64,000 nt of DNA from contig JAJFKW010000001.1 in the NCBI GenBank assembly GCA_021773015.1, positions 3,331,305-3,395,304 on the forward strand, written 5' to 3'. The stretch is from Woeseia sp. (GTDB lineage: Bacteria > Pseudomonadota > Gammaproteobacteria > Steroidobacterales > Woeseiaceae). The notes beneath the pieces were generated by a model, which did no database searches, had not been told where the DNA came from, and worked only from the letters and a program-made list of their open reading frames with translations. The position numbers were made by a program, and so were the translations under genes. This document shows positions 5,960 through 23,507 of the stretch, in pieces. Every line of letters begins with the position of its first letter. Within the stretch, counting starts at the first letter, position 1.

Positions 5960-6146
5960 GACGATTCCTTCGCGCCGAACGATTCCGATGGAGCCGTATT
6001 GTTGGCAAACGAACGTCGCAGGTCAATGGCTATGCCCAGGCAATTGATGATATGGCGACAAAACTTGCTATCGGGGCCCGTCACGGATACACGGGCTGCG
6101 GAAGTGTTAGAATTGCTGCGAGAGAGCGCCAATTTAAGGAATCAAT

Positions 6147-6485
6147 ATGAGCGTCGGTAGTTCGCAGTCCGTAATCCTAAGTAACACAGAGAGCATTCCA
6201 GGAAGACAAATTGTCGAATTTTATGGTGTTGTTACCGGCAATACGGTTCGCGCGAAACACGTTGGCCGGGACATCATGGCGGGCCTCAAGAACATCGTGG
6301 GCGGTGAATTGAAGGGCTATACCGAGCTATTGCAGGATTCTCGCAAGGAAGCGACCGATCGTATGATTGAGCAGGCACATTCCATGGGTGCGAATGCGGT
6401 TGTAAACGTCCGATTTGCGACAAGCTCGATATCACAAGGGGCAGCAGAACTTTTTGCCTATGGCACCGCAGTACGCATTGCCTAG
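6147..6485 (+). CDS. YbjQ family (UPF0145) protein
   Basis: 112 aa. It matches the small YbjQ/UPF0145 family: STESIPG-like NTESIPGRQIVEFYG, the conserved KNIVGGELKGYTELL core and a C-terminal MGANAVVNVRFATSSI. These proteins form pentameric rings; their cellular role is uncertain. AAGGAAT precedes the ATG. It is the first of three rightward genes with a paralogue and an M48 peptidase. Confidence 0.88.
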   Translation: MSVGSSQSVILSNTESIPGRQIVEFYGVVTGNTVRAKHVGRDIMAGLKNIVGGELKGYTELLQDSRKEATDRMIEQAHSMGANAVVNVRFATSSISQGAAELFAYGTAVRIA

Positions 6486-6503
6486 CGCGCAGCGACGATT
6501 TCG

Positions 6504-6968
6504 ATGATTGAAATACTTCTAAACTTCGGACTACCGATTCTCATAATGCTCATCGCGTTTTTCGTGGGCAGTCGAATTGAAAAGCGGCACTTCGAGGACA
6601 TCCAAAATAGGGAAGAAGCGCTGCACGGATTTCCTGCCGTATCATTCGAAAAGTTACCGGCGGATTGGAAGGTGGGTTCTGTCGACTTGGTGAGCGGTAG
6701 CGTCGTCATTTCGCTTGACTATTTTAAGAGAATTATTGCCGGTCTTCGCGGTCTCATTGGCGGCCGTATCAAGACGTATGAGCCGCTACTGGAAAGAGCC
6801 CGCAGAGAGGCATTACTACGCATGACCGAAAGTGCGAAGTCCCAAGGGTTTGACGCAGTTGTCAACGTTCGCCTTGAAACATCGCGGCTTGCCAATTCTG
6901 CTCGTAATGGCAAAGGTACGGCAGGAATTGAAATATTGGCATTCGGAACTGCTTTAAGCTTAAGTTGA
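6504..6968 (+). CDS. Membrane-anchored YbjQ-family paralogue
   Basis: 154 aa. An N-terminal membrane helix (about 4-22, LNFGLPILIMLIAFFVG) is followed by a short charged linker and a YbjQ domain (FKRIIAGLRGLIGGRIKTYEPLLERAR, then GFDAVVNVRLETS). The domain is about 40% like the preceding gene by eye, suggesting an old duplication that gained a membrane anchor. It lies 18 bases after its paralogue and 19 before the M48 peptidase gene, so the three are probably cotranscribed. Confidence 0.82.
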   Translation: MIEILLNFGLPILIMLIAFFVGSRIEKRHFEDIQNREEALHGFPAVSFEKLPADWKVGSVDLVSGSVVISLDYFKRIIAGLRGLIGGRIKTYEPLLERARREALLRMTESAKSQGFDAVVNVRLETSRLANSARNGKGTAGIEILAFGTALSLS

Positions 6969-6987
6969 ATTCTCAAGCGTATTACCG

Positions 6988-7827
6988 ATGAAATTCATAC
7001 CGCGCAAACCCCGCGAAGGTATAAATGTCAGTGATGTCCATCCACTCGCGGAGGCAGGCGCGCTGGTAGCTGGGCTTTCTATCATATTCACGGTCGTTGC
7101 GGTGGCACTTTTCTATGCCGTGGAACTTGCACTCCTATCCATATCTGTTGAGACGGAGGTGCAATTGTTCGAAAATTGGGCACCTGATGATTTGCTTTCC
7201 GTCAGCGCTGACGACGAGCGAAAAACACAGGCGCAGGAAATTCTCCGACGGTTAGTGGCGCATTGGGGAGATGCGCCATATCAGTTTAGATTAGAAATTG
7301 TCGAATCAGACGTACCCAATGCAATGGCATATCCGGGGGGACTGATTGTTGTAACAACCGAGCTGCTCGATGGTGTGGCGTCCGAAAACGAGCTGGCGTT
7401 TGTGTTGGGACACGAGTTGGGCCATTTCCGAAACCGAGATCACTTACGGATGTTGGGGCGTGTTGCGGTCATTGGTTTGGTATTTGTCGCGGCGACCGGC
7501 ACTGATGGCGGCGCAGCACTGGGTGTGAGAATTGCGGACATCGCCCAACGCAGTTTCAGTCGCGGGCAGGAATCAGCGGCAGACGAATTCGGCTTACAGG
7601 TTGTCAATGCAGAATACGGGCATGTTGATCATTCGTGGAATTTCTTCGATCGACTGAACGATGGCGACTTACGCTCATCCAAATTTATTGCCTACTTGTC
7701 GACGCATCCTTCTGCGGCGGATCGATCCGATCGACTGAAGGTACTTGCTCATGATCAGGGTTGGCCGTTGTCGGGACCTACGATTCAGCTCAACTGGATA
7801 AATATTTCCTCTCCAGCGGATCCGTAA
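6988..7827 (+). CDS. M48 family zinc metallopeptidase
   Basis: 279 aa. One N-terminal membrane segment (about 27-52) anchors the protein. The catalytic HELGH is at about residue 142, and the third ligand Glu is in ESAADEFG (about 198). YPGGLIVVTTELLDG upstream is typical of Ste24/BepA/LoiP-like M48 peptidases. The C-terminal segment STHPSAADRSDRL is also a family signature. It is probably an envelope quality-control protease; pairing with membrane YbjQ proteins hints at joint action, which is inference only. Confidence 0.9.
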   Translation: MKFIPRKPREGINVSDVHPLAEAGALVAGLSIIFTVVAVALFYAVELALLSISVETEVQLFENWAPDDLLSVSADDERKTQAQEILRRLVAHWGDAPYQFRLEIVESDVPNAMAYPGGLIVVTTELLDGVASENELAFVLGHELGHFRNRDHLRMLGRVAVIGLVFVAATGTDGGAALGVRIADIAQRSFSRGQESAADEFGLQVVNAEYGHVDHSWNFFDRLNDGDLRSSKFIAYLSTHPSAADRSDRLKVLAHDQGWPLSGPTIQLNWINISSPADP

Positions 7828-7865
7828 ATCAGCAATGGCACGCACGGCCGAGCAACGCACGGGCG

Positions 7866-8465
7866 TTAGAGTAAAGCGGCCCGCAGAAATGCCACGAGTT
7901 CCTGTCGTGCGCGCTCCTGATTACTCCAAAGATGATATTCCTTAGACGGCGTGGCGGTGGTCAGCAGCCGAATGCTCTGTGCCTCCGCTAGAAGTCGTAT
8001 CTGATCTATAGTTACCTCGTAGTAGGCATCCGCCGCAGAAGCAACCGGTTTTAGATATACCGCTTTGCTGGCGCCGATCGCGTTTGGCGTCCAACCGGAT
8101 AGCTGCAGATTTAGCGGCTCGCCATCGGCAAAAACGGTGACCGTGTCGAACCCGCCGCGTTGGTTTGTCGAATCAGGGTCTTGCACTGTACTCCACACGC
8201 CAACCCACAGAAAATACCGGAACTGCCCGCTCCGATTGACCTCAATTGGTCCGAGCTGCACGTAGTCGCGAGCGTAAGCGGCGTACGCTGAATTGTCCCG
8301 GTATAAAAGTATGGGAGTGATATTGCTGGTGACGGTGTTGCCGGTTCGCGGATCTAGGTAAATGCTAGTTAACTTCGATGTCGACGCGCAGGCGGTAATA
8401 GTGACGACGAGGACTGTCGCTAGCGCCGGCAGCCCGACTCGCTTATGAGCGTTTAGAAATCGCAT
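7866..8465 (-). CDS. Uncharacterised lipoprotein at the end of the multiheme cytochrome operon
   Basis: 199 aa from the ATG; a longer frame overlapping the upstream gene is not preferred because the signal peptide starts here. The signal ends in the lipobox ITAC (about residue 24). The body is beta-rich with no motif I recognise; it contains no CXXCH. Its start lies only 4 bases after the stop of the outer-membrane barrel gene, with no clear Shine-Dalgarno, so translation is likely coupled. Position suggests it is an accessory, perhaps an assembly lipoprotein, of the outer-membrane end of the cytochrome system. Confidence 0.7.
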   Translation of the reverse strand: MRFLNAHKRVGLPALATVLVVTITACASTSKLTSIYLDPRTGNTVTSNITPILLYRDNSAYAAYARDYVQLGPIEVNRSGQFRYFLWVGVWSTVQDPDSTNQRGGFDTVTVFADGEPLNLQLSGWTPNAIGASKAVYLKPVASAADAYYEVTIDQIRLLAEAQSIRLLTTATPSKEYHLWSNQERARQELVAFLRAALL

Positions 8466-8469
8466 GCTA

Positions 8470-10917
8470 CTAAAAGAAAACCTGATATCCGAGATTAACG
8501 AAATAAGATTCTCGATCAAGATTGACCACCTCCGTCTCTCTCTGAACGAATTGTTTGCCTGCCTCTAACTCGACACGAAATCGCTGGCTGCGTCGATACT
8601 GTAGGCGAATACCTGGCGTATAAATCCACTCGTAGTCCGTGTCGCCTATTCGCTCACGTCTATCGATGCGCAGCCGCGGATTCAGGCGCCATGTTCGGTT
8701 GAACGGGTAGCGGCTGTCGAGTGTCACGGACGATACTGTCGAGGTCTCTGTGGCAGACTGCCGAAAGCCAATTATGCTGACATCTCCTTCACGCAACAGA
8801 CTGCTGGCGACTATGTTGGCGGCAATGTAACGAATACGAGATCCCAGTGTCGCGAGCACACCGCCAGACGCTGGAGTAGCGTCGATTGAAGTTTGATTCG
8901 CGTCAGCGCTGATTTGGATTCTAGGCGACAGTGTGTAGGAGATACCAAGTGTGTAACTGGTGGATAGCGGGCTGCGATCCAGTCCAAGTTGTCGAATCTC
9001 GTCCATACTAAAAATTTGCGACAATTCAGCAAAGTCGAATACCGGTTGACCAATGATCGCATTGCCCGCAGTAAGAAATGGGCTGCGTCGCTTGTCGAAC
9101 GAACCATTGATGTTCAGTCTGGAACTGATCCGCCAGCTTGCTTGCAAGAAAGCGCTGCTAAGCTCGCTATATAATGTGTCGTAGTCGATGAGGCCCCAGA
9201 AGCTTCGATCGGCGCTGAAGTAACGAAATTCACCGCCGATCGCTTGTCGGTCTGTAAGACCGTCGATGTCTTGTTGTACAAAGAACACGCCCAGCTCTAG
9301 CTCATCCCATAACGGGCCATAGTCCATACTGATGCCGTAGAACGTTCTTTCTGAATCGATGCCATCGCTGCTTGTATAGGCCGGCTTTCCCACCACCGCG
9401 CTTAGCAAAGTGCGCTCATTCCATTGATAGCCGAGATTGAGGCCGTCAAATCGTCCAAGGATACCGCCGGAATTTCTGGATTGTCGGCCTATGCGCCCAC
9501 GAAGTCCGGATGCGGCGTGCGACAGGTCGGCATACGCGTAGGATACTCGAGTGTCGTTTCCTGATGCGGATTCCTCACTAAGAAAGTCACTTCGATAACC
9601 GGCTGTGAGGCGACTACTGAAATCAAACCGCTCGCCACGACGTCGTGCATCAAAATTGACATCCGAATAGAGCGCAGACTGGCTTACAATTTCGTCGTCA
9701 TCGTTTTGCTGGTTAACATCACGCCGGTAATACTGCGAGAAAAAAGTTTGTACACGCCAGTCACCGTCTTGGCGAGGCTGGCGCCGTGTAACCGCGGTTT
9801 GAGTTGCGTTGTCGACTAGTTGATTTCCGGCAAGCAGGGCGGCCAATCGCTGACTCACTCGGCCAGCACCGGCGCTTTCAGGGTATAGCGACAAATAGCG
9901 TCGGTATTCCGCCTTTGCGTGAGCTATCTGACCGTTTTTCTCCCGTGCGAGTGCCAAGAACTCTTGCGCTTCCATTTGACGCGGTTGCTCGGGAAACTGT
10001 AGAACTTTGGTGTAGATCTGAATCGCTCGTGCTCGATCACCTGATACCATCGTGGCGCGAGCTTCGTCCATCAACCGGTCAATTTTCGATAATGCTGTTG
10101 TTGCTGCGTCCGTTGTCGGGCGGACAGTAGCGATGTCTGCGGCACTTTTCGCCGCGATCGTGAGGTCAACCGAAGACTCCGTATCCTCAAGCTGGTCGAT
10201 CCAGGCTTCGTCAAAAATATCGGCGACAGAGTGCAGGGCGCTGCGTGCGTCGTCGGCGGAATTGAAGTCGCCTAACCTCAAGCGGTACCAAGTAGCATCT
10301 TCCACGTTGAGCTCGGAATAAAAAACCCGCTGCTGCGGCGCAAGCGTCAATCCTTTGAGGTCAGCTGCCGTAGGGATACGGCGATACGATGCTAAGTTGA
10401 TGACAAAAAGCGGGCGATTCGACTCTGGCTGCGGCACTTGCCGGTGTTGAATCGCCAGTGCATCGTCGTCGGATTCCACAGCGGTAATGGAGTCCCGCTG
10501 TACGTCGAGCTGTAATATAAATGTCAGCCCTTGCGACGCAATCACAAAAGAAACCGGTTCGCTAAACTGCAGCGTTAGTTCTGGGCCGCCGGCACCACCA
10601 CCTTCATACTCAATATCGATTAATGCCGCGAGATCAGCGTTTGTTGGCCTGTATCGACCGCGCGATTGGGCCGAGGTGGGCGATACGCCATTGCAAATTG
10701 TTGTCGGATCGACCTGGATGCGAATACTATCTCCGCGAGTTGACGGTTGGTGTTGCAAGTACGTTACTTGGCAATTGAAGCGAATTTCAATCGTCGCATT
10801 TTCGGCATCGCCAGCGACACGTGTTCCGGCGATAAAACTGGGTGCAGCAATTGCCGCTTGATTCGTTAAGGCAAGAAGCGCGCTGGCGAGCCAAGAAAAT
10901 CGCCGCGTTGCTACCAT
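8470..10917 (-). CDS. Outer-membrane beta-barrel protein with AMIN-like, SPOR-like and TPR segments
   Basis: 815 aa. A signal peptide ends near AAIAA (about 25). Residues ~30-150 are beta-rich and AMIN-like (ELTLQFSEPVSFVIASQGL). Residues ~165-250 resemble a SPOR-type domain (FVINLASYRRIP, then YRLRLGDFNSADDARSAL). Residues ~285-370 are TPR-like (ARAIQIYTKVLQFPEQ). From ~390 to the terminal Phe the protein shows amphipathic strands ending ...LGYQVFF, as for an outer-membrane barrel of many strands. It starts 7 bases inside the 32-heme cytochrome gene and so is coupled to it. A barrel next to very large cytochromes suggests an outer-membrane port or anchor for electron transfer; it is not recognisably MtrB. 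Confidence 0.75.
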   Translation of the reverse strand: MVATRRFSWLASALLALTNQAAIAAPSFIAGTRVAGDAENATIEIRFNCQVTYLQHQPSTRGDSIRIQVDPTTICNGVSPTSAQSRGRYRPTNADLAALIDIEYEGGGAGGPELTLQFSEPVSFVIASQGLTFILQLDVQRDSITAVESDDDALAIQHRQVPQPESNRPLFVINLASYRRIPTAADLKGLTLAPQQRVFYSELNVEDATWYRLRLGDFNSADDARSALHSVADIFDEAWIDQLEDTESSVDLTIAAKSAADIATVRPTTDAATTALSKIDRLMDEARATMVSGDRARAIQIYTKVLQFPEQPRQMEAQEFLALAREKNGQIAHAKAEYRRYLSLYPESAGAGRVSQRLAALLAGNQLVDNATQTAVTRRQPRQDGDWRVQTFFSQYYRRDVNQQNDDDEIVSQSALYSDVNFDARRRGERFDFSSRLTAGYRSDFLSEESASGNDTRVSYAYADLSHAASGLRGRIGRQSRNSGGILGRFDGLNLGYQWNERTLLSAVVGKPAYTSSDGIDSERTFYGISMDYGPLWDELELGVFFVQQDIDGLTDRQAIGGEFRYFSADRSFWGLIDYDTLYSELSSAFLQASWRISSRLNINGSFDKRRSPFLTAGNAIIGQPVFDFAELSQIFSMDEIRQLGLDRSPLSTSYTLGISYTLSPRIQISADANQTSIDATPASGGVLATLGSRIRYIAANIVASSLLREGDVSIIGFRQSATETSTVSSVTLDSRYPFNRTWRLNPRLRIDRRERIGDTDYEWIYTPGIRLQYRRSQRFRVELEAGKQFVQRETEVVNLDRESYFVNLGYQVFF

Positions 10918-13313
10918 TCTCTGTCACTGATGCGGTGGCAACCACTATTGGCACAGTTTTGATCTCGACTTATGCCGTTATGTCTGTCAACGCCTGCTTT
11001 GTAGTCTCTCGCATGACAACCGGCACAGGTCGGTTGATAGCCAGGTGACGACCAGTTCACCACTTCTGTGTTGGAACGGTGGCAATCCGTACACTGAAAA
11101 TTACCACGGTGATCAAGTGGCTCGTACGTCAGGCCGGTGTGGTTGTAATCCGTTGGCGACCACGCATTCGGTGTATGACAGCCGCCGCAGTCCTGAACCG
11201 TATTGAAGTGATTTGGGTTCTGCCCCGTAGCCTGTATGCCGTTGTGGCATGACGCGCATGAGCCGAGTACTTGAGTGTGGTCAACATTCAATACAGGCGT
11301 AAACGCGTTCGGGTTATGGCAGTCCTCACATACGTTTGTTGTCTGAACGTGCGTCGGTCCTTTTCCGGTGGCGTCGGTGCCATTGTGGCAGGCGAAGCAA
11401 TTGCCCGTGATGTTGGCGTGGTCGAAATTTGCAGGCAACCAGGCGACTGTCGTATGGCAGTCATCGCAGTTACTGCCGCTCGCAATGTGCGTCGGGTGTT
11501 TGCCAGTCGCAATAACGCCGTCGTGACAGGTGCTGCAGCTTCCCAGTACTTGCGTATGGTCGACAGTGAATGTCGGCAACCACGTTGTCGGATTGTGGCA
11601 ATCTTCACAGATATTGGTTGTTAGAACGTGAGTCGGGTTCTTGCCGCCGGCAATCGTACCGTTGTGACAATCCGAGCAATTGCCAGTGATATTGACGTGA
11701 TCGAAATTCGCCGGCGACCACGCGGATGAAGTGTGGCAGTCCTCACAATTGTTGCTACTTGCGATATGAGCCGGGTGTTTCCCAGTTGCTGTTACGCCAT
11801 TGTGGCAACTGTTGCAGGTCCCTATCACCTGAGTGTGGTCTACAGTGTACGTGGGTATCCAAGTTGTCGGGTTGTGACAGTCTTCGCAAATATTCGCAGT
11901 CAGTATGTGGGCTGGGTGCTTGCCGGCCGCGTCCACGCCGTTATGGCAGCTGGCGCAATTGCCTGTGATGTTGACGTGATCGAAATTCGCGGGCAGCCAA
12001 GCAACTGACGTATGGCAGTCGTCGCAGTTGTTGCCGCTGGTGATATGTGTTGGCTGCTTTCCTGTTGCTAACACGCCATTGTGGCAACTGCCACAGGTCC
12101 CAAGAACCTGCGTGTGGTCAACGGTGAAAGCTGGGGCAAATACGTTAGTTGTGTGACAGTCTTCGCACACATTGGTCGTCTGGACGTGGGTAGCATGCTT
12201 GCCGGTTGCGTCCATACCATTGTGGCAGTTTGAGCAGTTGCCGGTGATGCTGGCATGATCGAAATTAGCCGGCACCCAAGCAATGGTGGTGTGGCAGTCT
12301 TCACAATTATTGCCGCTGGCAATATGCGTGGGGATTTTACCGGTCGCTGTCATTCCATCATGGCAGCTACCGCACGTTCCAAGGACCTGCGTATGGTCGA
12401 TGGCAAATGTTGGTGAAAATACGTTGGTCGTGTGACAGTCTTCGCACACATTGGTGGTTAGAACGTGTGCTGTATTTTTCCCGATTGCTTCTGTGCCATT
12501 ATGACAATTAGAACAATTGCCCGTGATGTTAACGTGATCGAAATTCGCAGGCGTCCAGGCAATCGTGGTATGGCAGTCCTCGCAATTGTTGCCACTCGTA
12601 ATGTGGGTCGGGTTTTTGCCGGTCGCCGTTGCTCCATTATGGCAGCTGCCGCATGTACCGATGACCTGAGTGTGATCAACCGACAATACCGGCTCGAACA
12701 TTGTCGTACTGTGGCAGTCTTCGCAGACATTGGACGTTTGTACGTGCATCGGACTCTTGCCGGTCGCTATAGATCCGTTGTGGCAACCGATGCAATTGCC
12801 GACGACACCCGCGTGGTCGAATACGGCCGGAAGCCAGCCCGTCGTACTGTGACAATCATCGCATTGATCACTTGATGAAATGTGCGTCGGCGTTTTACCG
12901 ACGGTCTGCACGCCATTGTGGCAGCTGGCGCAGCTGCCCGTCAGCGACGTGTGATCGACGAATGTAACGATATTCCAATCTGCAGTGATGTGACAGTCGG
13001 AGCAATCGCCAATGGTCGCAACGTGATTGGCTGATTTCGATGAGGCTCGAACCAAGCTGCTTTGCGAATGGCAATTGGAACAATTGGATGCCGTCGGGCC
13101 AAATGTGCCACTGACGTGACAACCTTCGCACGTAACGTTGGAGTGTGCGCCATCAAGTTGAAAGCCGGTGCTAAAGTGATCGAACGTCTGCTGAGATTGG
13201 CCTCTTTGTGCTGCAAACATAAGTGCTGCGATCAAAGTTAGCGTAAGCAACCATCGCAACCCCACGGTGCGATTATCCTGTAAATCAATGCGGCTCAATC
13301 GGGTGCTATTCAT
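10911..13313 (-). CDS. 32-heme c-type cytochrome built from tandem tetraheme repeats
   Basis: 800 aa. A signal-like hydrophobic stretch (about 21-40) leads into a protein with 31 CXXCH motifs and one terminal CX4CH (CANSGCH), so up to 32 covalent hemes. Residues 143-700 are six consecutive 93-residue units, each with four CXXCH. Each unit also has four further conserved His (TH, FDH, TH/AH, DHTQV), enough for bis-His ligation of every heme. It should be exported by Sec and matured by the Ccm system. The gene overlaps its neighbours by ATGA upstream and 7 bases downstream. Role: long-range electron carrier, periplasmic or surface; partner inference comes from the operon. It resembles cytochrome c3/class III multiheme proteins in its motif spacing only. 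Confidence 0.9.
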   Translation of the reverse strand: MNSTRLSRIDLQDNRTVGLRWLLTLTLIAALMFAAQRGQSQQTFDHFSTGFQLDGAHSNVTCEGCHVSGTFGPTASNCSNCHSQSSLVRASSKSANHVATIGDCSDCHITADWNIVTFVDHTSLTGSCASCHNGVQTVGKTPTHISSSDQCDDCHSTTGWLPAVFDHAGVVGNCIGCHNGSIATGKSPMHVQTSNVCEDCHSTTMFEPVLSVDHTQVIGTCGSCHNGATATGKNPTHITSGNNCEDCHTTIAWTPANFDHVNITGNCSNCHNGTEAIGKNTAHVLTTNVCEDCHTTNVFSPTFAIDHTQVLGTCGSCHDGMTATGKIPTHIASGNNCEDCHTTIAWVPANFDHASITGNCSNCHNGMDATGKHATHVQTTNVCEDCHTTNVFAPAFTVDHTQVLGTCGSCHNGVLATGKQPTHITSGNNCDDCHTSVAWLPANFDHVNITGNCASCHNGVDAAGKHPAHILTANICEDCHNPTTWIPTYTVDHTQVIGTCNSCHNGVTATGKHPAHIASSNNCEDCHTSSAWSPANFDHVNITGNCSDCHNGTIAGGKNPTHVLTTNICEDCHNPTTWLPTFTVDHTQVLGSCSTCHDGVIATGKHPTHIASGSNCDDCHTTVAWLPANFDHANITGNCFACHNGTDATGKGPTHVQTTNVCEDCHNPNAFTPVLNVDHTQVLGSCASCHNGIQATGQNPNHFNTVQDCGGCHTPNAWSPTDYNHTGLTYEPLDHRGNFQCTDCHRSNTEVVNWSSPGYQPTCAGCHARDYKAGVDRHNGISRDQNCANSGCHRISDREW
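11214..12887 (-). repeat. Six tandem 279-bp (93-codon) repeats encoding tetraheme units
   Basis: Within the 32-heme gene the unit from THISSSDQC to the next TH is exactly 93 codons, and the same spacing holds six times without gaps (residues 143-700). Units are similar but not identical at DNA level, so this is protein-coding amplification rather than a recent DNA repeat. Expansion or contraction by one unit would change the heme count by four while keeping the frame. Confidence 0.88.
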
Positions 13314-14896
13314 TGCAATGACCTCACCTGTCTAAATGAATCGGCCGAATGGCAGCGACCGCAGTCGAAACCAAATTCGCCGTCGTGCACGTCGTCCGTA
13401 CGATGACAGCTACGGCAAGTAGCACCCGCCGACAGCATTTTGTTGAGAGGGCTCCGATGGCAGTCGGCGCAGGCGACGACCGCATGGGCGCCGGTTAATG
13501 GGAATTCCGTCTGTTGATCGTGATCGAACGTCCAGATGTCCCATGCAACTGGGTTATGACAATCCTCACAGCTTTCGGAAAAATTGCCCTTGTGCGGATC
13601 ATCTTCAATATGACAAGCGCTACAGGTCGTCTCGACATCCGTGAACGCTTTCGTCTCGTGACAGTCTTCGCATTCGTTGTCGTCGTGTTTCCCTAACAAC
13701 GGGAATGCGGCTAGATCATGATCGAAGAACACCGGATCCTGCCAGTTGACTTCGCTGTGACAGGATTCGCATTGTGTTCCGAGCGTGCCGCGATGTGGTT
13801 GATCATCTAAATGGCACGTGTCACACGTTGTTAACAATGCGACTTCAAAAATTGGTTCAATGTGACAATCGTTGCACACGACCTCACGGTGGCTGCCGCG
13901 AAGTTGGTATTCTGTATCTCGGTCGTGGTCGAAGCGCGTCTGACCCCAGTCGTCGTTGCTGTGACAGTCGGTGCACTCTACTCCGTTGTGACCATCGTGT
14001 TCATCGTCATCCAAGTGGCACGCAATGCAGGTGGTTTTCATTTCATCCTGGAACGGATCATCGGAATGGCAGTTGTTACATGCCAACTGCGCGTGCTTTC
14101 CTTCGAGAAGAAATTCGGTATCACGTTCATGGCTGAAACTCGAGTCGTTCCAATCGCTCGGATTGTGGCAGGATTCACATTCGTTGCCGCTGCGCCCATC
14201 GTGTGCATCGTCTTCTGAGTGACACCCAAAACACGTAGCGGGTGCGTTCTGATAGGTTTCGTCCTCGTGGCAATCGAGGCAGGCAGCATCTAAATGCTTG
14301 CCAAGCAGCGCATATCCAGTGGTATCGTGATCAAAAGTTGCGTCTACCCACTCCGTGGATTCATGACAGCTGCCGCACTCTTCACCTAGTGTTGTCTTGT
14401 GCACATCGTCGTCCCGGTGGCAGTCGATACACAGGCCCGACGTTCCGCGACGCTTTTCATCGGTAGCATGGCAGTCACCGCACTCTGCTTCACGATGCGC
14501 TCCAAGCAGTTCGAAGTTGGTAAAATCGTGATTGAACGTCGTCTCATCCAATGTCACGATGTCCGCATCTCGGCCCTTATGATCTGTGTGGCATGAAGCA
14601 CAGGTCACGTCGCCGACATCTACGGACAGGCCGTGGAAGCCGCGTTGGCTTTGCAAATCACTTGCAATATCCTCGTGACAGTCCTTGCACAGCGCATCCT
14701 GGCCTTTCTTGTTGAAGCGCTTATGGCAAGAGGAGCACTCTGTTTCCAGTTCTTGGTGCCCAGAGATGACCTGACCAGGCATGACTAGCGACTCTAGATC
14801 TTGAGCGTTTGCGTTTCCAAAAAATGTCAGAGCCGCTATCATAATAATTACGCTTCCAATTCGCTGCCAATAAGCCATTCGTCCAGATCTGCGCAT
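13310..14896 (-). CDS. 21-heme c-type cytochrome with triheme repeats
   Basis: 528 aa. The signal peptide ends near ANA-QD (about 31). I count 21 CXXCH motifs arranged as seven groups of three. Six groups (residues ~121-516) begin with F-x-H and repeat every 66-69 residues. The first (54-103) is divergent. Conserved spare His (FDH, GKH/GAH, DDxH) give one per heme, consistent with bis-His ligation. The protein is acidic. It starts directly after the TGA of the membrane b-type cytochrome gene (TGAATG) and overlaps the 32-heme gene by ATGA. Likely a periplasmic electron carrier between the b-type cytochrome and the 32-heme protein. Confidence 0.9.
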   Translation of the reverse strand: MRRSGRMAYWQRIGSVIIMIAALTFFGNANAQDLESLVMPGQVISGHQELETECSSCHKRFNKKGQDALCKDCHEDIASDLQSQRGFHGLSVDVGDVTCASCHTDHKGRDADIVTLDETTFNHDFTNFELLGAHREAECGDCHATDEKRRGTSGLCIDCHRDDDVHKTTLGEECGSCHESTEWVDATFDHDTTGYALLGKHLDAACLDCHEDETYQNAPATCFGCHSEDDAHDGRSGNECESCHNPSDWNDSSFSHERDTEFLLEGKHAQLACNNCHSDDPFQDEMKTTCIACHLDDDEHDGHNGVECTDCHSNDDWGQTRFDHDRDTEYQLRGSHREVVCNDCHIEPIFEVALLTTCDTCHLDDQPHRGTLGTQCESCHSEVNWQDPVFFDHDLAAFPLLGKHDDNECEDCHETKAFTDVETTCSACHIEDDPHKGNFSESCEDCHNPVAWDIWTFDHDQQTEFPLTGAHAVVACADCHRSPLNKMLSAGATCRSCHRTDDVHDGEFGFDCGRCHSADSFRQVRSLQ

Positions 14897-15802
14897 TCAG
14901 TACATGTGAACGGCGAGGACGTGGGCTAGTGCTGAAATTACCAACACAATAAATAACGGCATATGAAATACATGCCATAAAGAGAACAGGCGTTCGTAAA
15001 ACGTTAGTTGTGCCACCTGCCTCATCAAATTAACTTGCGTTTTCGCGTACTGATTCGCCGCACGGCGAAGCTCATCCGTGTTATTACGAATTGTGGCCGA
15101 GGCGGTCGCGAGCGCGCGCAGTTCTTGCTTTATCTTGAGCGATAACTTTGCCCGTACATACAGGTGCTTCACTGTCCATGCGAGGCTGCTACGAATGCCA
15201 ATTCGATTGGTATACTGATCACCGAGTAGCTCGGCGGAGATTGTGTGCAGCTCTGAAATAAATTTTGGAAGAATTACGGCGATACCACTTCTATTTTCGA
15301 CGGCCGTCGAAATTTCGCTCCGAAGCTCCTCAATGGTCGTGCGCTTACCATAGAGACCACGATGGATTCTGGCATAAAAGTATCGACCAACAATGCCGCT
15401 CCCGGCGACCGCCAACATACTGTACAAGGCGATCTTGCTGTTAAACGCGTCCACACTGAAGTTACAGTGATACAACACAAGTAACGGCCCAACGAGGCCT
15501 AAAATCATGTGAATCCGAAACCAGTGCGGTACTAGCCCAAGTCGTCGCATTATTTGTGACTTTTTGCTCGCGGGATAGAAAAGTAGCAACAACATAAACG
15601 AGCCACCCACGATGCCAAGCCAATACCCAAGGCCCTCGCTTGGATTGACCAACTCAGTGCTGCGCAGATACCATCCCACGCCAAGTGCAATGAGCAGAAA
15701 ACTGTACCCAGTAAGTGGCCAATTGATGGACTGCGGGAACGACGCCGGCGCCGCACTCTGTCGATCCATCGCGTCCATTCTATTCGCTGCCATTTCGTTC
15801 AT
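14897..15802 (-). CDS. Multi-span membrane protein, probable b-type cytochrome
   Basis: 301 aa. Hydrophobic segments lie at about 29-45, 58-78, 97-113, 124-142 and 275-299. Between the fourth and fifth is a loop of about 130 residues rich in charged helix. His pairs suited to heme b lie in PHWFRIHMILG...LYH and in LWHVFHMP...LAHVLAVH. The family is not one I can name with confidence; it recalls cytochrome b561/ferric-reductase-like membrane proteins. Lying between a CcmI-like factor and the 21-heme cytochrome, it is the likely quinol- or flavoprotein-linked entry point at the inner membrane. The start could also be an internal ATG a few codons later. Confidence 0.65.
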   Translation of the reverse strand: MNEMAANRMDAMDRQSAAPASFPQSINWPLTGYSFLLIALGVGWYLRSTELVNPSEGLGYWLGIVGGSFMLLLLFYPASKKSQIMRRLGLVPHWFRIHMILGLVGPLLVLYHCNFSVDAFNSKIALYSMLAVAGSGIVGRYFYARIHRGLYGKRTTIEELRSEISTAVENRSGIAVILPKFISELHTISAELLGDQYTNRIGIRSSLAWTVKHLYVRAKLSLKIKQELRALATASATIRNNTDELRRAANQYAKTQVNLMRQVAQLTFYERLFSLWHVFHMPLFIVLVISALAHVLAVHMY

Positions 15803-15828
15803 TTCTGCTTAAGACTCTCTGTTTATCG

Positions 15829-16629
15829 TTATTCTATTGTTAGACGTATCTGTGCGTTGTCTGCGACAGTTACTGGTTCGCTTTTTACCTGAAGATTTTG
15901 CAGCGCTTCAGCTGCGTTTCCGCTTCGCGATATCCTCGCCGTAATTACGACTTCCTCAAAATCGGAAAGCTTGACGCCCTCAACCATCGAAAGTGCGTCA
16001 TCTAGCTTGAAATGGATAGGGAATGTCGCCGCCGGTCGGCGCAGTACCGCAGCCGGGATGCCAGAGGCGCCACTAGCGCGTGCAAAAATGAAAACTGTAT
16101 CCGTCGACTGTACGATGCCTGCAACTCGATCGGACAGCAGCAGTGTTCCGGATATCGTTGCCGACCTAGGCGCTGTCGCGTGCTGAAGCGGTTTGTTGTC
16201 GGCTAGTGCTGCTAGGTTGGGATCATATTCGCCCAAATCGGCCGCTTTTTCGTAGGCGCTGATCGATTGGTCGATTCGACCTAGATGTTCGTAGGATCGT
16301 GCAAGCAGCAACCATCCTTTGCCATCGTTCGGGTTTTTCTGTAGTCGAGATTCGAGGCCAATCAACATGTTGGCTACAGAGCCAACTTTTTGCTGCGTCG
16401 ATGCGGTCATGGTATTGCTGGTTAACGCGGATGTCGGGGGAAGAGCAGCATGTGCTTTGTCGTGCGCCGGTGAGCCGAGAAAAAAATAGACGCTCAAAGA
16501 GAAGATTGGCAAACTGATTGCCACAGCGGTAACCGTGCCGCGATTACTCGTGCCAACCAGCGGGCGGGCGACAATCGCCACCGCAGCGCCGCAAAGTAAC
16601 AAAATTGCAATTAAGAAATACCAATTCAT
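15829..16629 (-). CDS. CcmI/CycH-like cytochrome c biogenesis protein (TPR)
   Basis: 266 aa. Two N-terminal membrane segments (about 3-21 and 35-51) are followed by a TPR region (LESRLQKNPNDGKGWLLLARSYEHLG, DQSISAYEKAADLG) and a C-terminal beta domain (ISGTLLLSDRVAG...VFIFARA...PAAVLRRP) typical of CcmI/NrfG-type proteins. In system I, CcmI hands apocytochrome c to the heme ligation machinery. Here it is the first gene of the multiheme operon, away from any ccmA-H cluster in the window, so it is probably a dedicated factor for these heme-dense substrates. A GAGGT ribosome site precedes the ATG. Confidence 0.8.
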   Translation of the reverse strand: MNWYFLIAILLLCGAAVAIVARPLVGTSNRGTVTAVAISLPIFSLSVYFFLGSPAHDKAHAALPPTSALTSNTMTASTQQKVGSVANMLIGLESRLQKNPNDGKGWLLLARSYEHLGRIDQSISAYEKAADLGEYDPNLAALADNKPLQHATAPRSATISGTLLLSDRVAGIVQSTDTVFIFARASGASGIPAAVLRRPAATFPIHFKLDDALSMVEGVKLSDFEEVVITARISRSGNAAEALQNLQVKSEPVTVADNAQIRLTIE

Positions 16630-17140
16630 TTCGTGTTAAACCTCGTTGGTCGCTACTCTTTTTATTACACGTCGCTAGAGTGCATTTGGTTCCACATTTA
16701 GTGAGAAAATATGAAAGTTCTTTGCTGGCTACGTTATCGCGGTGCAACAACAGAGAACTTGTTACTATCGCGCTCCAATAGAGTTATAAAATGTCGCATA
16801 GTAGAGACACTTAGTGACACAGCTCAATCGCAAGATGTGGTTTGTTAAGCTACTCGAATTGCCGTAAAAAAGTAGTTGGAGATTACCTGCAGTTTTGCGT
16901 TGCGGAAATGCGGATCGTGTTGACGATGGGATGCTTGAACTCGACTGCGGAGTGAGTAACGGGCGGGTCTATGACGTCAACGACCCTAAACTTCCAACTC
17001 AGCTATGTTTGGCGTTTGAGCGGCGCTGGCAATATGAGTCTAAGACGCAGCTTCGTTTCTGAGACTTAGGTCACGTTATGCTGTCCATCTGCAGTTAGTC
17101 TTTGCGGTGAATCGCGCCTAAGAAACTGGAGGAACGCACT
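16630..17140. other. Divergent intergenic region of the cytochrome locus, about 510 bp
   Basis: No convincing ORF, RNA gene or strong hairpin seen. It must hold the promoters of the leftward CcmI-cytochrome operon and the rightward flavoprotein gene. I could not pick a convincing -35/-10 or sigma-54 site by eye. The long spacing for two promoters leaves room for regulator sites or a small RNA. Confidence 0.5.
17128..17132 (+). promoter_or_regulatory. Shine-Dalgarno GGAGG that points to an ATT start codon
   Basis: GGAGG at 17128-17132 lies 8 bases before an in-frame ATT at 17141. No ATG or GTG lies between the upstream stop (17108) and the first hydrophobic codons; the next usable codon, TTG at 17165, is 32 bases past the site and would cut the membrane helix. 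Confidence 0.6.
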
Positions 17141-18451
17141 ATTTCTTTCAACATAATTGTCTATTTGGTCCCGGTTGCCATCATTGTCATTTGGTACTGG
17201 CGTCGTCATACGGTGGCGGAGCGCGCCGGCCTTACAACACTAATTGAGTCGACTGAAGAGGGATTGATCGAGCCGCCAACATTGCACCCTGAGATTGACC
17301 ATAATCTTTGCATAGGTTGCACGAATTGCGTCGCTGCGTGTCCAGAACAGGGCTCGCATTCGGTGCTCGGTATGATCAAAAAAAAAGCGCATCTCATAGG
17401 GCCGACCAATTGCATTGGACACGGTGCGTGCAAGGCGGTGTGTCCGGTTGATGCGATTACGCTGGTGTTCGGAACGGCGCGGCGTGGTATTGACATCCCG
17501 CTAGTAAATCCGGATTTTGAGACTAACGTACCGGGCATATTCATTGCCGGTGAACTTGGCGGTATGGGTCTGATTCGAAACGCTGTCGAACAAGGTAAGC
17601 AGGCAATACAATCAATCAAGAAGCTTGTTTCGAAATCGCATTCAAATAGTCTGGATGTCGTGATCATTGGCGCAGGGCCTGCGGGGTTTGCGGCTTCGTT
17701 GGCCGCTACAGATTCGGGCATTCGCTACTCAACGGTGGAGCAGGAAGAACTGGGTGGTACTGTCGCACATTTTCCGCGTCGTAAAATGGTCATGACGCAG
17801 CCAGCCGAGTTGCCGATTGTCGGCAAAATGCGCTTCAAGGAAGTTCAGAAAGAAGCGCTGATCGATTTCTGGCGGAATGTCGAAGCGAAGACAGGTATCG
17901 AGATTAATTATGGGGAGTCGGTGCAGACGATCGATGCTAGTCCCAATGGAGGCTACCGCGTAAAGACGAACAAGCAGACCTACGATACCCGATCCGTGCT
18001 ACTCGCGATCGGACGGCGCGGCACGCCACGAAAATTGGAAGTGCCGGGCGAAGAGCTTGATAAAGTCGTCTATCGCGTCATCGACGCAACGCAGTACGCC
18101 AATCAGCACGTACTCGTCGTTGGCGGCGGTGATAGTGCTTTGGAAGCAGCGACAACGATTGCTGCCGAATCCGGCACAACGGTGACTCTATCGTATCGCT
18201 CAGGTTCATTCTCACGTGCCAAACCCAAAAATCGGGATTTGGTTCAGCAGATGTCAGAAGATGGTTTGTTACGTGTGATATTTGGCTCTAACGTTAAGTC
18301 GATCAGCGACTCACACGTCGAAGTCGATATCGAAGGTGTGACGGAATCTATCTTAAACGATGCGGTGGTTGTTTCAGCGGGTGGAATATTGCCGAGTGGT
18401 TTTCTGCGCGCAATAGGAATCAATGTCGAAACGAAATGGGGGACGCAATAG
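17141..18451 (+). CDS. Membrane-anchored ferredoxin-flavoprotein oxidoreductase (NAD(P)-linked)
   Basis: 436 aa if the ATT start is right (428 from the TTG at 17165). Order: an N-terminal membrane helix (SFNIIVYLVPVAIIVIWYW); a two-cluster ferredoxin domain with CIGCTNCVAACP (Cys near 57) and CIGHGACKAVCP (near 91), where His replaces the second Cys of the second motif. Then comes a thioredoxin-reductase-like FAD/NAD(P) domain with IIGAGPAGFAAS and VVGGGDSALEAA. The redox CXXC of true thioredoxin reductase is absent, so it should pass electrons between NAD(P)H, FAD and Fe-S clusters, facing the cytoplasm. Divergent from the cytochrome operon, it is the likely electron donor to the b-type cytochrome. 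Direction is inference. Confidence 0.8.
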   Translation: MSFNIIVYLVPVAIIVIWYWRRHTVAERAGLTTLIESTEEGLIEPPTLHPEIDHNLCIGCTNCVAACPEQGSHSVLGMIKKKAHLIGPTNCIGHGACKAVCPVDAITLVFGTARRGIDIPLVNPDFETNVPGIFIAGELGGMGLIRNAVEQGKQAIQSIKKLVSKSHSNSLDVVIIGAGPAGFAASLAATDSGIRYSTVEQEELGGTVAHFPRRKMVMTQPAELPIVGKMRFKEVQKEALIDFWRNVEAKTGIEINYGESVQTIDASPNGGYRVKTNKQTYDTRSVLLAIGRRGTPRKLEVPGEELDKVVYRVIDATQYANQHVLVVGGGDSALEAATTIAAESGTTVTLSYRSGSFSRAKPKNRDLVQQMSEDGLLRVIFGSNVKSISDSHVEVDIEGVTESILNDAVVVSAGGILPSGFLRAIGINVETKWGTQ

Positions 18452-18474
18452 ATATGAAAGGTCGTTGCGAATTT

Positions 18475-18900
18475 CTAGTTAGCGCGTCGCCGAAGCCAAT
18501 TGTCAAACGAATATCGGTCGCTGCCGGCCGGTGCGAGCAGCAATAGGAATATCAAAGCCAGTCTCGTAAACGTGTGCCCGTCAATATTGAATAGCGGTTC
18601 CTGTAGCGCGTGTCCGTAGGTCGTAACGATTAATAGGAGGCCAACTGCGATCAGCGCTTCTCTGCTGCGCAGCCCTAAACAGATCAACGCCCCTGCGGTT
18701 AGCTCAAGTACCGGGATGCTGTAGCCGAGCAGGTTGAGCAGCCACACCGGAATCCAGGTATCTGCAAATCCTGCAACAAAAAATTGTTGTGCGTGAACCG
18801 CTGGCGTCAATACAAAAACTTTCCAGTAACCGGCCATCAGGAATAGCAAACCAAGAATCCAGCGTGCAACGAAATTTACAATTGGCCAATTGTCGTGCAT
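18475..18900 (-). CDS. DoxX family membrane protein
   Basis: 141 aa with four hydrophobic segments. The start RWILGLLFLMAGYWKVF and GYSIPVLELTAGALICLGL are typical of the DoxX family of small four-helix membrane proteins, several of which are linked to quinone or thiosulfate oxidation or redox stress. No catalytic residues can be assigned. It faces the flavoprotein gene with only about 23 bases between the ends and lies just downstream of the outer-membrane barrel gene on the same strand. Confidence 0.82.
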   Translation of the reverse strand: MHDNWPIVNFVARWILGLLFLMAGYWKVFVLTPAVHAQQFFVAGFADTWIPVWLLNLLGYSIPVLELTAGALICLGLRSREALIAVGLLLIVTTYGHALQEPLFNIDGHTFTRLALIFLLLLAPAGSDRYSFDNWLRRRAN

Positions 18901-18930
18901 GTCGCTGCCTGCAATATAGGTTATCGAGGC

Positions 18931-20127
18931 CTAATAATACCAGCTCAGTCTCAGTTGTATGTAATCGTCATTCGCGAATGCAGTAAGGTCCCCAGAAATA
19001 TCGCTATTGCTTATCGCGCGTAACCGTAACTCAGCGCTTAGATTGTCGCCAAATCGTCGCTCCGCTTCTACACTGAGAAAGACCTCTTGGGAATCAACGT
19101 CCATAATGACGCCCGCAAGCAGGCTAGTATCGTTCGCATCATTGAGTGCGAGCCGTGCGCCAACAAAAACGTCATCATCGGATGAAGTTGGCGCAGAAAA
19201 CGTGTTTCGGCCGTCGTATAGATACTCGACAATGATGCCGATATCCGCAGCACTCTCGCGCACGCCATAGAAAGTGTATTCGACGCCGCCGACGGTGGCG
19301 ACGAAGGAATCAGTGCGGGTGTCTCTGCTAATTGCTTCGAGCTTCCAGAGCCAGGCATCACGAGTATATTGAACGTCGATGCCAAATTGCGTCATTTGAT
19401 CGTATATCGGTCGGAGTTCTGTACCGTCAGAGTTCACCGCAAATCTTGGCTCGCGAGACGTACCATCGAAATAGTGCGCGCCAACATCGACATCGCCAAT
19501 GTAGTGGCTATAGCGCAATGCGTAGTCAAGGTGACTGTCTTCGTCCGAAGATTCATAAATCGGGTTATCCATATCTACCGTTAACCCCGGACGGAATCGA
19601 CCCTCTTCGCCGCCAAAGGTGCGCTCGCGAAACCAGGGCATTATGTAGACGCCAAACTGCCCAAAGTCCCGTTGGAGATTCACGTTGAGCATTGGCTGCC
19701 CCAATTTGTCTTCTTGGTCGACATCCTCAACCTGATCGGTTTGGTTTATAACGTCAACGAGATGGCGAGACTCCGCCACACCCCAAAACACCTTGTTCAG
19801 ACCTATGTTCAAATCCCATTCATCGCCCTCAATCCCCCAGTAAAACTCCCGTAGATCCGCGTGGCTGCGTTCGCTATCTTCCGCGTCTCCGCGAGCAAAC
19901 CCCACAGCACTGAATCTTTGTCGCCCACTGTCGCTACGCCAGTAAAGTTCGGGCTGTAGAAGCAATGAACCATTCATGCCGCCTTGCTGAGCGGGAAATT
20001 GAGACCCTTGCCAAAACACCTGCGCTTCAACGCCAACGAAACCTGTAAAGTCCCATTCGCCGGCGCTGCTTGTTGATAGCCACAGTGTTGAAATCAATAT
20101 GGTTACTAATTTGAATAAGTTCTTCAT
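18931..20127 (-). CDS. Outer-membrane beta-barrel protein of the RND-LolA module
   Basis: 398 aa from the ATG before MKNLFKLV; a longer frame adds ~50 residues without a signal character and is rejected. The signal ends near SSAG (about 23). The rest is alternating polar/hydrophobic strands (WDFTGFVGVEAQVFWQG, REFYWGIEGDEWDLNIGLNKVFWG) with a terminal aromatic pair (LRLSWYY), as in outer-membrane barrels. It resembles DUF1302-like proteins often found beside MMPL/RND transporters with a LolA-like partner. It is the third gene after the TetR regulator and probably the outer-membrane member of that export system. Confidence 0.75.
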   Translation of the reverse strand: MKNLFKLVTILISTLWLSTSSAGEWDFTGFVGVEAQVFWQGSQFPAQQGGMNGSLLLQPELYWRSDSGRQRFSAVGFARGDAEDSERSHADLREFYWGIEGDEWDLNIGLNKVFWGVAESRHLVDVINQTDQVEDVDQEDKLGQPMLNVNLQRDFGQFGVYIMPWFRERTFGGEEGRFRPGLTVDMDNPIYESSDEDSHLDYALRYSHYIGDVDVGAHYFDGTSREPRFAVNSDGTELRPIYDQMTQFGIDVQYTRDAWLWKLEAISRDTRTDSFVATVGGVEYTFYGVRESAADIGIIVEYLYDGRNTFSAPTSSDDDVFVGARLALNDANDTSLLAGVIMDVDSQEVFLSVEAERRFGDNLSAELRLRAISNSDISGDLTAFANDDYIQLRLSWYY

Positions 20128-20206
20128 GAAATTCTCGGTAAATTTGGTCGCCTGCCCACACTGGGGAGAAGGGGAGATAGCAGGCAGACGACCCACGAAG
20201 TTCGCA

Positions 20207-21064
20207 CTAGCGAAGTCGTGATAACCGTCCTTTGACAAAGTCAGCGTCTGACAAACCAACGCCAAAATCATAGTCACGGTAGATCAAGTCGGTGCTTTTT
20301 CCAGTTCTGTGGTTGACCATCTCGAATCGATGGCTTCTCCAGAAGCCGTCATATTCGCGGTAGTCTTTCAATTCAAGCGTCTTCAACAAGTCACCGCGGC
20401 GGTTGTAGAATTCCACTCTCCGCACTTGGTAGATGTCACGATCAACCCAACTCACTTGACGGGAGTAGCCAGAATTTTCGTATCTTGGTGTGCGTTCAAT
20501 GACATCCGCAGCGATACCGTCGATAGTCTCCTCACGTAACCAATTGTAGTCGTATTTGTTTAGCTCGAGCGCGGTGAAGTCCTCAAACGCGAATTCGGAT
20601 CCAACGAATGGTCCAGACTTGTTGGAGGATGAAATTCGCTTGACGCGTTTCAGTGCTGGTAGAAAAAGCCATTGGTTGTCCGGATCGAGAATGTTGGCAT
20701 GTGACAATAGCGCAGTGCCTTTTATGTCGTTCGGATTGTCGAAGAAAACAAGGGACTTGTCACCGACGCTTTCGTCGGCGACCTCAAGTGTTGTTATCTT
20801 AAGTGACCGATGGGATTCCTTGCCGGCAGCATTTCGTAACACCATTTCGAGTTCAACAGCGCTGTCACCAAAGCCACGATCCGATCTATCAGCTCTTGCT
20901 GCAACCTCGAAGCCTAGTCGCTCGGTTTGTGTCGCGCCACGTACGGGTGTCAACTCGGTAGCCGCTAATGTTTCAGATGCCATTAACGCCAGCGATAATG
21001 AAGCAAGCAGCATCATTCCGACGTAATTACCAGCAGGCCGTGGCAATGTGAGTTTGTTAATCAT
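20207..21064 (-). CDS. Possible separate LolA-like product from an internal start
   Basis: 285 aa. An ATG at 21064 with AAGGAGG (21072-21078) 7 bases before it lies in the same frame as the transporter and begins directly before a signal peptide (YVGMMLLASLSLALMASETLA). A free, secreted LolA-like protein could therefore be made in addition to, or instead of, the fusion. Which forms exist cannot be told from sequence. Confidence 0.6.
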   Translation of the reverse strand: MINKLTLPRPAGNYVGMMLLASLSLALMASETLAATELTPVRGATQTERLGFEVAARADRSDRGFGDSAVELEMVLRNAAGKESHRSLKITTLEVADESVGDKSLVFFDNPNDIKGTALLSHANILDPDNQWLFLPALKRVKRISSSNKSGPFVGSEFAFEDFTALELNKYDYNWLREETIDGIAADVIERTPRYENSGYSRQVSWVDRDIYQVRRVEFYNRRGDLLKTLELKDYREYDGFWRSHRFEMVNHRTGKSTDLIYRDYDFGVGLSDADFVKGRLSRLR

Positions 21065-23407: not shown

Positions 23408-23423
23408 GTTAAAACCTTTAATT

Positions 23424-23434
23424 ACCGTTTGGTC
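23424..23434. promoter_or_regulatory. Candidate TetR operator, promoter-proximal copy
   Basis: ACCGTTTGGTC (ACC...GGT inverted ends), 17 bases upstream of the RND-LolA start. It shares the GACCG/GGTC half-site with two other sites, one before the transporter gene and one before the tetR gene. Confidence 0.4.
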
Positions 23435-23454
23435 AAGAATAATGTATAAAAAAA

Positions 23455-23466
23455 GACTGTTCGGTC
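23455..23466. promoter_or_regulatory. Candidate TetR operator, distal copy
   Basis: GACTGTTCGGTC, an imperfect inverted repeat about 31 bases (three helical turns) from the promoter-proximal copy, between tetR and the transporter gene. Confidence 0.4.
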
Positions 23467-23507
23467 AATAATAGATGTAAAAAAAAAGCTCGCCATCGCC
23501 CTGGTAA

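Follow-up and report, generated by a model that had tools for sequence, protein, structure and literature searches.

A 64,000-nucleotide stretch of the genome of the marine gammaproteobacterium Woeseia sp. (assembly GCA_021773015.1, contig JAJFKW010000001.1, positions 3,331,305 to 3,395,304 of the forward strand), referred to below as the window, carries a compact minus-strand operon (positions 7866-16629), which by its features is a cluster of the putative porin-cytochrome complex PCC3, and a divergent gene for a ferredoxin-flavoprotein (FdFlavo) that probably acts together with it. In the order of transcription, the operon encodes a CcmI/CycH-like heme-lyase recruitment factor (15829..16629), a 301-residue inner-membrane protein (IMP; 14897..15802), a 21-heme cytochrome c proposed as a periplasmic wire (periplasmic multiheme cytochrome, MHCp; 13310..14896), a 32-heme cytochrome c proposed as the extracellular part (MHCe; 10911..13313), an outer-membrane barrel protein (8470..10917) and a small lipoprotein (7866..8465), while FdFlavo occupies the plus strand at 17141..18451. 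All seven genes that an earlier sequence-only reading of this DNA had listed were found, as were the tight junctions it described: TGAATG between the IMP and 21-heme genes, an ATGA overlap, a 7-base overlap of the 32-heme and barrel genes and a 4-base gap before the lipoprotein; the CcmI-to-IMP junction is a gap of 26 bases. Its count of 53 heme sites was reproduced as 31 CXXCH and one CX4CH motif within 10911-13313 plus 21 CXXCH motifs within 13310-14896; shuffled versions (200 per protein) contained on average 0.45 CXXCH motifs for the 32-heme protein and 0.31 for the 21-heme protein, with a maximum of 3. The likely starts of the lipoprotein and FdFlavo genes differ from the mechanical open reading frame calls. 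For the former, ATG at 8465 is more likely than TTG at 8519, and for the latter the rare codon ATT at 17141, which stands seven bases downstream of GGAGGA and at whose aligned position several relatives have Met, is more likely than TTG at 17165.

Both cytochromes possess signal peptides and are built of repeats: the 32-heme protein (800 residues, no lipobox) consists mostly of four-heme repeats of 93 residues, and in the 21-heme protein (528 residues) three-heme units about 67 residues long predominate, with 25.0 and 25.1 residues per heme, respectively. Free histidines (36 and 22) outnumber the hemes in both proteins, so that bis-His ligation is possible. The Pfam family Cytochrome_C7 matched the 32-heme protein with 161.1 bits and the 21-heme protein with 99.7 bits, and the nanowire_3heme model (TIGR04257) matched the former with 68.4 bits at a cut-off of 40. 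Far behind Cytochrome_C7, but above its cut-off of 30, the model of MtrC/MtrF domains II/IV (PF22113) scored 45.3 and 32.4 bits on the two cytochromes. The earlier statement that the locus contains no relatives of MtrA, MtrB or MtrC is supported for the barrel (MtrB/PioB, PF11854, no match in the whole genome at E 0.001) and for MtrA/DmsE (TIGR03508, 126 bits on protein P0003 at a cut-off of 192.2, with nothing above the cut-off in the genome), but calls for a qualification as to MtrC.

Homologues were compared in 80 named loci, which are the best 80 of 315 confirmed ones, lean to close relatives and do not include the founding PCC3 clusters; heme numbers of relatives were taken from stop-to-stop frames. 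MHCp has 21 hemes in 71 of the 75 complete homologues (18, 18, 22 and 24 in the others), and 24 hemes were counted in four loci of the phylum sample described below. MHCe is far more variable, ranging from 9 to 52 hemes in 40 complete values, with extremes of 5 hemes in loci L028 and L043 and 57 or more in L122, where the gene extends beyond the end of the locus. The near-constant MHCp and the variable MHCe fit a periplasm-spanning ruler with an adjustable outer piece, and the possibility that MHCp spans the periplasm has already been stated in a survey of Gallionellaceae (PMC10734462). The clusters in which FdFlavo is located downstream, elsewhere or was not found appear to be those with a short MHCe (9-11 hemes), namely L116 (cut at the locus end), L127, L084, L109, L137 and L192. 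A 791-residue frame with eight CXXCH motifs occurs in another locus of the window genome (L186, 7989-10361, contig C4).

The IMP (protein P0005) carries two WX3HX13H motifs (W94/H98/H112 and W276/H280/H294) and one SGXXG motif (S135, G136, G139), and these residues are identical in 83 of 83 aligned sequences; further conserved histidines are H277 (83/83), H147 (81/83) and H299 (79/83). Of the five transmembrane helices expected of a PCC3 IMP, a hydropathy scan detected three segments, and the structural model, with a predicted local distance difference test score (pLDDT) of 73, contains five long helices in the right places. This protein had been designated a His-rich membrane cytochrome; having no CXXCH, it could only be a cytochrome of the b-type, and we propose it to be a diheme b protein. 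No Pfam family, FRD included, matched the IMP up to E 0.1, though it may function like FRD proteins. Comparison of the IMP profile with PDB sequences gave nothing credible (best E 0.12), and no IMP was confirmed in viral contigs. In locus L036 (the same place as L074), an extra shortened IMP copy (10809-11612), in which the greater part of the loop joining helix 4 to helix 5 is missing, lies between the CcmI and FdFlavo genes.

The barrel protein was modelled with AlphaFold2 from 43 sequences (mean pLDDT 86.5) as a signal helix, two beta domains (residues 29-141 and 171-251, the second being SPOR-like), TPR-like helices (271-364) and 22 strands (387-814). The PDB structures matching the model are porins and TonB-dependent receptors, and a 22-strand outer-membrane fold is predicted with confidence. 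In the 43-row alignment, invariant residues occur in the TPR part and in the barrel part. The domain composition AMIN/SPOR/TPR/barrel assigned earlier to this protein was borne out in that SPOR exceeded its Pfam cut-off (21.9 bits against 21), TPR was weakly recognized and the barrel was modelled, whereas AMIN had no Pfam match. Among the 41 named loci whose sequence extends 8.5 kb or more past the IMP gene on its downstream side, 40 contain a barrel homologue, and in 31 of these 41 a homologue of the lipoprotein (lipobox ITAC-A, no Pfam family) adjoins the PCC3 barrel. The CcmI-like protein matched Ig_CycH (PF23892) with 88.6 bits at a cut-off of 27 and TPR_CcmH_CycH with 38 bits, just below the cut-off of 42. 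The system does bring its own CcmI, as had been supposed: the operon gene is a second copy, and the other is found at C1:139310. CcmI as an essential part of the system was rejected, for it lies near the IMP gene in 49 of the 80 named loci and upstream of it in 36 of the 69 that have at least 2.5 kb there.

At the N-terminus of FdFlavo, one hydrophobic helix precedes basic residues. Under the positive-inside rule, this arrangement would place the remainder of the protein in the cytoplasm. Its two-cluster ferredoxin domain contains the motifs C-x2-C-x2-C-x3-CP and C-x2-H-x2-C-x3-CP. His replaces the second Cys of the second motif in 70 of 70 FdFlavo sequences (residue 104 of the stop-to-stop frame 17111-18451), and in the first motif, 3 of 70 have Ser at the position of the second Cys; the second cluster is probably a His-ligated [4Fe-4S] or [3Fe-4S] center. 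The FAD/NAD(P)H domain resembles YpdA/Bdr, thioredoxin reductase (TrxR) and TrxR-type ferredoxin-NADP reductase, these enzymes being nearest among PDB sequences (7a7b, 6.9e-38; 3f8p, 1.5e-25; 3ab1, 2.1e-21), and the YpdA model scored 158.6 bits at a cut-off of 339.9. The active-site cysteines of YpdA and TrxR form a CxxC motif or, alternatively, include a Cys in a GGGPC loop. FdFlavo differs from these enzymes by the added membrane helix, by the ferredoxin domain with the invariant His and by the lack of CxxC in the FAD part in all 70 sequences (the commonest loop being GAGPAGF, 41/70), and a thioredoxin-type disulfide reductase was ruled out because of this lack. Arg363 and Arg369, found in 69 of 70 sequences with one gap, stand where TrxR binds the phosphate of NADPH; by analogy, this suggests NADPH.

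PCC3 was named by He et al. (2017; PMC5566968). The type comprises a porin, two multiheme cytochromes, one extracellular and one periplasmic, with median heme numbers of 34 and 21, respectively, and an IMP about 300 residues long that bears SGXXG and two WX3HX13H motifs and was proposed to be quinone-linked; the founding clusters are Slit_0867-0870, Slit_1446-1449 and one of Leptothrix. The window operon shares the barrel, the heme numbers (32 and 21), the size and motifs of the IMP and the spacing of hemes (25 residues per heme compared with 22-39). It is a PCC3 cluster, as assigned by gene content, heme numbers and IMP motifs, the founding sequences being left aside, and so the kind of system implied to be unknown turns out to fit one described in 2017. 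FdFlavo, the CcmI copy, the lipoprotein and the SPOR/TPR part are unmentioned in the text passages of PMC5566968 and PMC10734462, with figures and supplements outside that scope.

The Mtr/Mto/Pio conduits share with this locus the general plan of a barrel with periplasmic and outer multiheme cytochromes, whereas here MtrB/PioB is unmatched, MtrA/DmsE remains below the cut-off, the hemes are far more numerous and 22 strands are modelled. In a survey of Woeseiaceae (PMC12175321), mtrA, mtrB and mtrC were reported for sediment members, in contrast to the window genome as regards mtrB. The IMP motif pattern recurs in PCC4 and in the porin-less clusters of a multiheme cytochrome with an IMP (MHC-IMP), in some of which an Fe-S or other redox gene is adjacent (He et al., 2017); PCC4, however, possesses three periplasmic cytochromes of 4, 5 and 10 hemes and no extracellular one, instead of the 21 and 32 hemes found here. 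With NOX and ferric reductases, to which He et al. (2017) compared it, the IMP shares two HX13H pairs for two transmembrane b hemes. In those enzymes the hemes are fed by cytoplasmic NAD(P)H and flavin, but the flavoprotein of the window is a separate gene of another fold.

The association of FdFlavo with PCC3 was analyzed by searching IMP and FdFlavo profiles in 369 genomes of the class, 398 of the phylum and 60 relatives. The thresholds for a strong match were set after viewing the lists (IMP, 1e-40 in the class, 1e-50 in the relatives and 1e-70 in the phylum; FdFlavo, 1e-60 or 1e-100), and kinship is ignored in all counts and Fisher tests. The dropped rows were, for the IMP, G009, G461, G490, G540, G601, G617 and four partial second matches in the class, G408 in the phylum and G009, G018, G035, G039 and G044 in the relatives, and, for FdFlavo, G066 and G740; among these, G039 was later examined and proved to be a true PCC3, and G018 and G035 belong to the porin-less type. 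In the class sample, a strong IMP was found in 42 genomes and a strong FdFlavo in 43, both in 41 and neither in 325 of 369. The exceptions are G634 (an FdFlavo fragment beside the IMP), G621 (PCC3 barrel and MHCe, cut off by the contig end) and G547 (a 3.5 kb contig with heme open reading frames beside FdFlavo). The two sets comprise the same 6 of 398 genomes in the phylum sample, on different contigs in 2 of them, and the same 16 of 60 among the relatives, or 16 of 17 if G039 with its weak IMP match is counted. Hence the claimed gene set does co-occur in relatives, and the flavo-Fe-S protein, which the sequence-only reading took for a part of the system, is tied to it by tracking the IMP across the genome samples. 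The pairs found unlinked argue for a functional tie between FdFlavo and PCC3.

In the class sample, FdFlavo lies at a distance of up to 1.5 kb from 35 of the 47 strong IMP copies and of up to 12 kb from 41. It is present in 74 of the 80 named loci; among the 69 with 2.5 kb or more of upstream sequence, the locus includes it in 67, and in 65 it is located no more than 4.5 kb upstream of the IMP gene, in divergent orientation in 57 and in the same direction in 8. The six named loci without it are L104, L105, L114 and L118, all with less than 1.5 kb upstream, and L116 and L127. In 16 PCC3-type loci of relatives and of the second copy in the window genome (L028-L043, several of which end at contig edges), FdFlavo adjoins 14 and CcmI 13; neither is adjacent in L028 and L043, and L042 lacks CcmI. 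L028 (C1:1467500-1487400 of the window genome, positions 9666-15876 of the locus) is a second PCC3 cluster composed of IMP, 21-heme MHCp, 5-heme MHCe, barrel and lipoprotein, and L043 of a relative is alike. Two PCC3 contigs (L048 and L095) are filed under Acidobacteriota and Candidatus Planktophila and are probably mis-binned proteobacterial contigs.

A parallel module was observed in loci L044-L047 and L142, where a longer flavoprotein adjoins a relative of the IMP and a decaheme cytochrome, and no barrel homologue was seen. Pfam analysis of three of the five flavoproteins (L044, L046, L142) revealed FAD, cNMP-binding and 4Fe-4S domains in all of them, and analysis of two decaheme proteins detected FHA above the cut-off in that of L046 and a sub-threshold FHA-like match in that of L142. 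This module is similar to the MHC-IMP clusters without a porin in He et al. (2017), and also to a 10-heme protein described as forkhead-associated in PMC10734462. The occurrence of an FAD/4Fe-4S protein beside an IMP relative supports, by analogy, the view that IMPs of this kind work with flavo-Fe-S partners.

Considering these data, we find it rather probable that the locus encodes a PCC3 complex together with a cytoplasmic FdFlavo partner that feeds electrons of NAD(P)H outward. FdFlavo, tethered at the inner membrane, would transfer hydride from NAD(P)H to FAD and pass single electrons on via its Fe-S clusters to the IMP, which would move them across the membrane on two b hemes, probably bound by His98/His280 on the cytoplasmic side and by His112/His294 on the periplasmic side. 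Next, the 21-heme cytochrome would bridge the periplasm and deliver the electrons to its 32-heme counterpart, which would sit within or upon the 22-strand barrel, with a final acceptor outside the cell, e.g., metal oxide or humic substance; the SPOR-like domain may anchor the barrel protein to the cell wall, and the CcmI copy may serve heme attachment. The data show the gene content, the motifs, the barrel model, the conservation and the near-constant co-occurrence, whereas outward direction, surface exposure, heme b binding, NAD(P)H use and wire action are what we infer. Such a NOX-like path is simpler than the quinone exchange proposed by He et al. (2017), since an NAD(P)H-type flavo-Fe-S partner is almost always present. 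Extending it to PCC3 at large, we tentatively suggest that this complex could be a trans-envelope NAD(P)H oxidase, in which FdFlavo would be the missing cytoplasmic subunit, the quinone pool would be bypassed, and a NOX-like diheme b IMP would be followed by a seven-unit 21-heme ruler of almost constant length, a barrel and an outer cytochrome that is exchangeable, with heme numbers from 5 to at least 57.

Several observations weigh against this reading. FdFlavo was not found at E 1e-60 in G039, in which a PCC3 cluster (the C-terminal end of the IMP at the contig end, then a 21-heme MHCp, a 9-heme MHCe, barrel and lipoprotein) is present; the gene could be in the missing part of the contig, or the small-MHCe type may work without it. 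Neither was it found in the 9.6-9.8 kb upstream of the IMP gene in L116 and L127, nor next to the clusters L028 and L043, though it occurs elsewhere in both latter genomes. The fold search with the IMP model (pLDDT 73) was uninformative: the matches listed, with Z 11.3 for the best, were helical bundles, for example chemoreceptor sensor domains, and included no NOX, NarI or b561 fold. RuBisCO was detected in 29 of 42 PCC3 genomes of the class sample versus 57 of 118 tested among its 327 PCC3-free genomes (Fisher test, p 0.03, kinship ignored), which fits lithoautotrophic uptake and speaks mildly against the outward direction. Finally, in iron-oxidising cells of Sideroxydans CL21, where both PCC3 copies are expressed above the mean, the IMP gene of copy 2 is significantly up (PMC12442390).

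The last two points, along with the occurrence of PCC3 in iron oxidisers (PMC5566968; PMC10734462), favor electron uptake, i.e., transfer from an extracellular donor such as Fe(II) through PCC3, the IMP and FdFlavo to a cytoplasmic acceptor, NAD(P)+ or another one, that would serve carbon fixation. We nevertheless regard this as unlikely, as both PCC3 clusters of Sideroxydans ES-1 are down on Fe(II) (PMC8788666), and at E 1e-30 no RuBisCO was detected in the window genome or in 12 further genomes of the class sample that carry PCC3. The extracellular subunit Slit_1448 is at 0 in every proteome column shown in PMC12016527. It also follows from general bioenergetics that outward flow is downhill and aided by the membrane potential, whereas flow from Fe(II) to NAD(P)+ is uphill and directed against it. 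We consider outward flow the likelier direction. The clusters without adjacent FdFlavo (L028, L043, L116 and L127) speak for a quinone link as in the model of He et al. (2017); the IMP would then act as a cytochrome b subunit does, trading electrons with the quinone pool, and FdFlavo would have a side task, e.g., regulation or maintenance. The two HX13H motifs, as in cytochrome b proteins, and a weak Ni_hydr_CYTB hit (20 bits at a cut-off of 30.1) in the IMP relative of L046 are in line with it, but a protein near-constant in PCC3 genomes and near-absent elsewhere is hard to explain by a side task, and we consider this model improbable. Still less credible, to a degree that makes it a marginal option, is the assumption that the cytochromes are soluble in the periplasm and either belong to a known pathway of nitrogen or sulfur metabolism or store electrons, instead of forming an outer-membrane conduit. 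It would accommodate the lack of a lipobox in the 32-heme protein, whose outside location is only predicted; however, the barrel homologue is conserved as described above, with its gene overlapping the 32-heme gene, and no nitrogen- or sulfur-pathway family exceeded its cut-off in the family scans of the window.

The outer neighbors of the cluster in the window (DoxX, DUF1302-like, MMPL, prolyl oligopeptidase, YbjQ-like and M48) had no match in 20 other loci, except for one M48 in L046; they are not conserved and hence lie outside the cluster limits. Promoter-like and terminator-like sites numbered 8 and 13, compared with 10.2 and 12.0 in shuffles, and an Rfam scan of 5000-24000 gave no match. 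The open reading frame 20207-23407 fuses an MMPL/RND-like transporter with a LolA-like domain.

The FdFlavo partner seems new relative to the PCC3 texts searched: the term "flavoprotein" is absent from their main texts (supplements, figures and preprints lying outside this scope), "ferredoxin" is likewise absent except for 15 occurrences in PMC10734462, there concerning Rnf and other ferredoxins, and literature searches for the IMP-FdFlavo pair under other wording gave no description among the records listed. Since 2017 PCC3 has counted as a candidate iron oxidase, but its function is unverified (PMC12442390) and its cytoplasmic end has so far been only a guess. The near-constant flavo-Fe-S partner supplies a concrete enzyme for that end, so that purified proteins could be used to test in which direction electrons flow. 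The IMP and FdFlavo constitute a marker pair for annotators, and Woeseiaceae of marine sediments are marked as PCC3 carriers. If PCC3 does prove to be a trans-envelope NAD(P)H oxidase, it would represent a branch of extracellular electron transfer separate from the quinol-fed Mtr-type systems.

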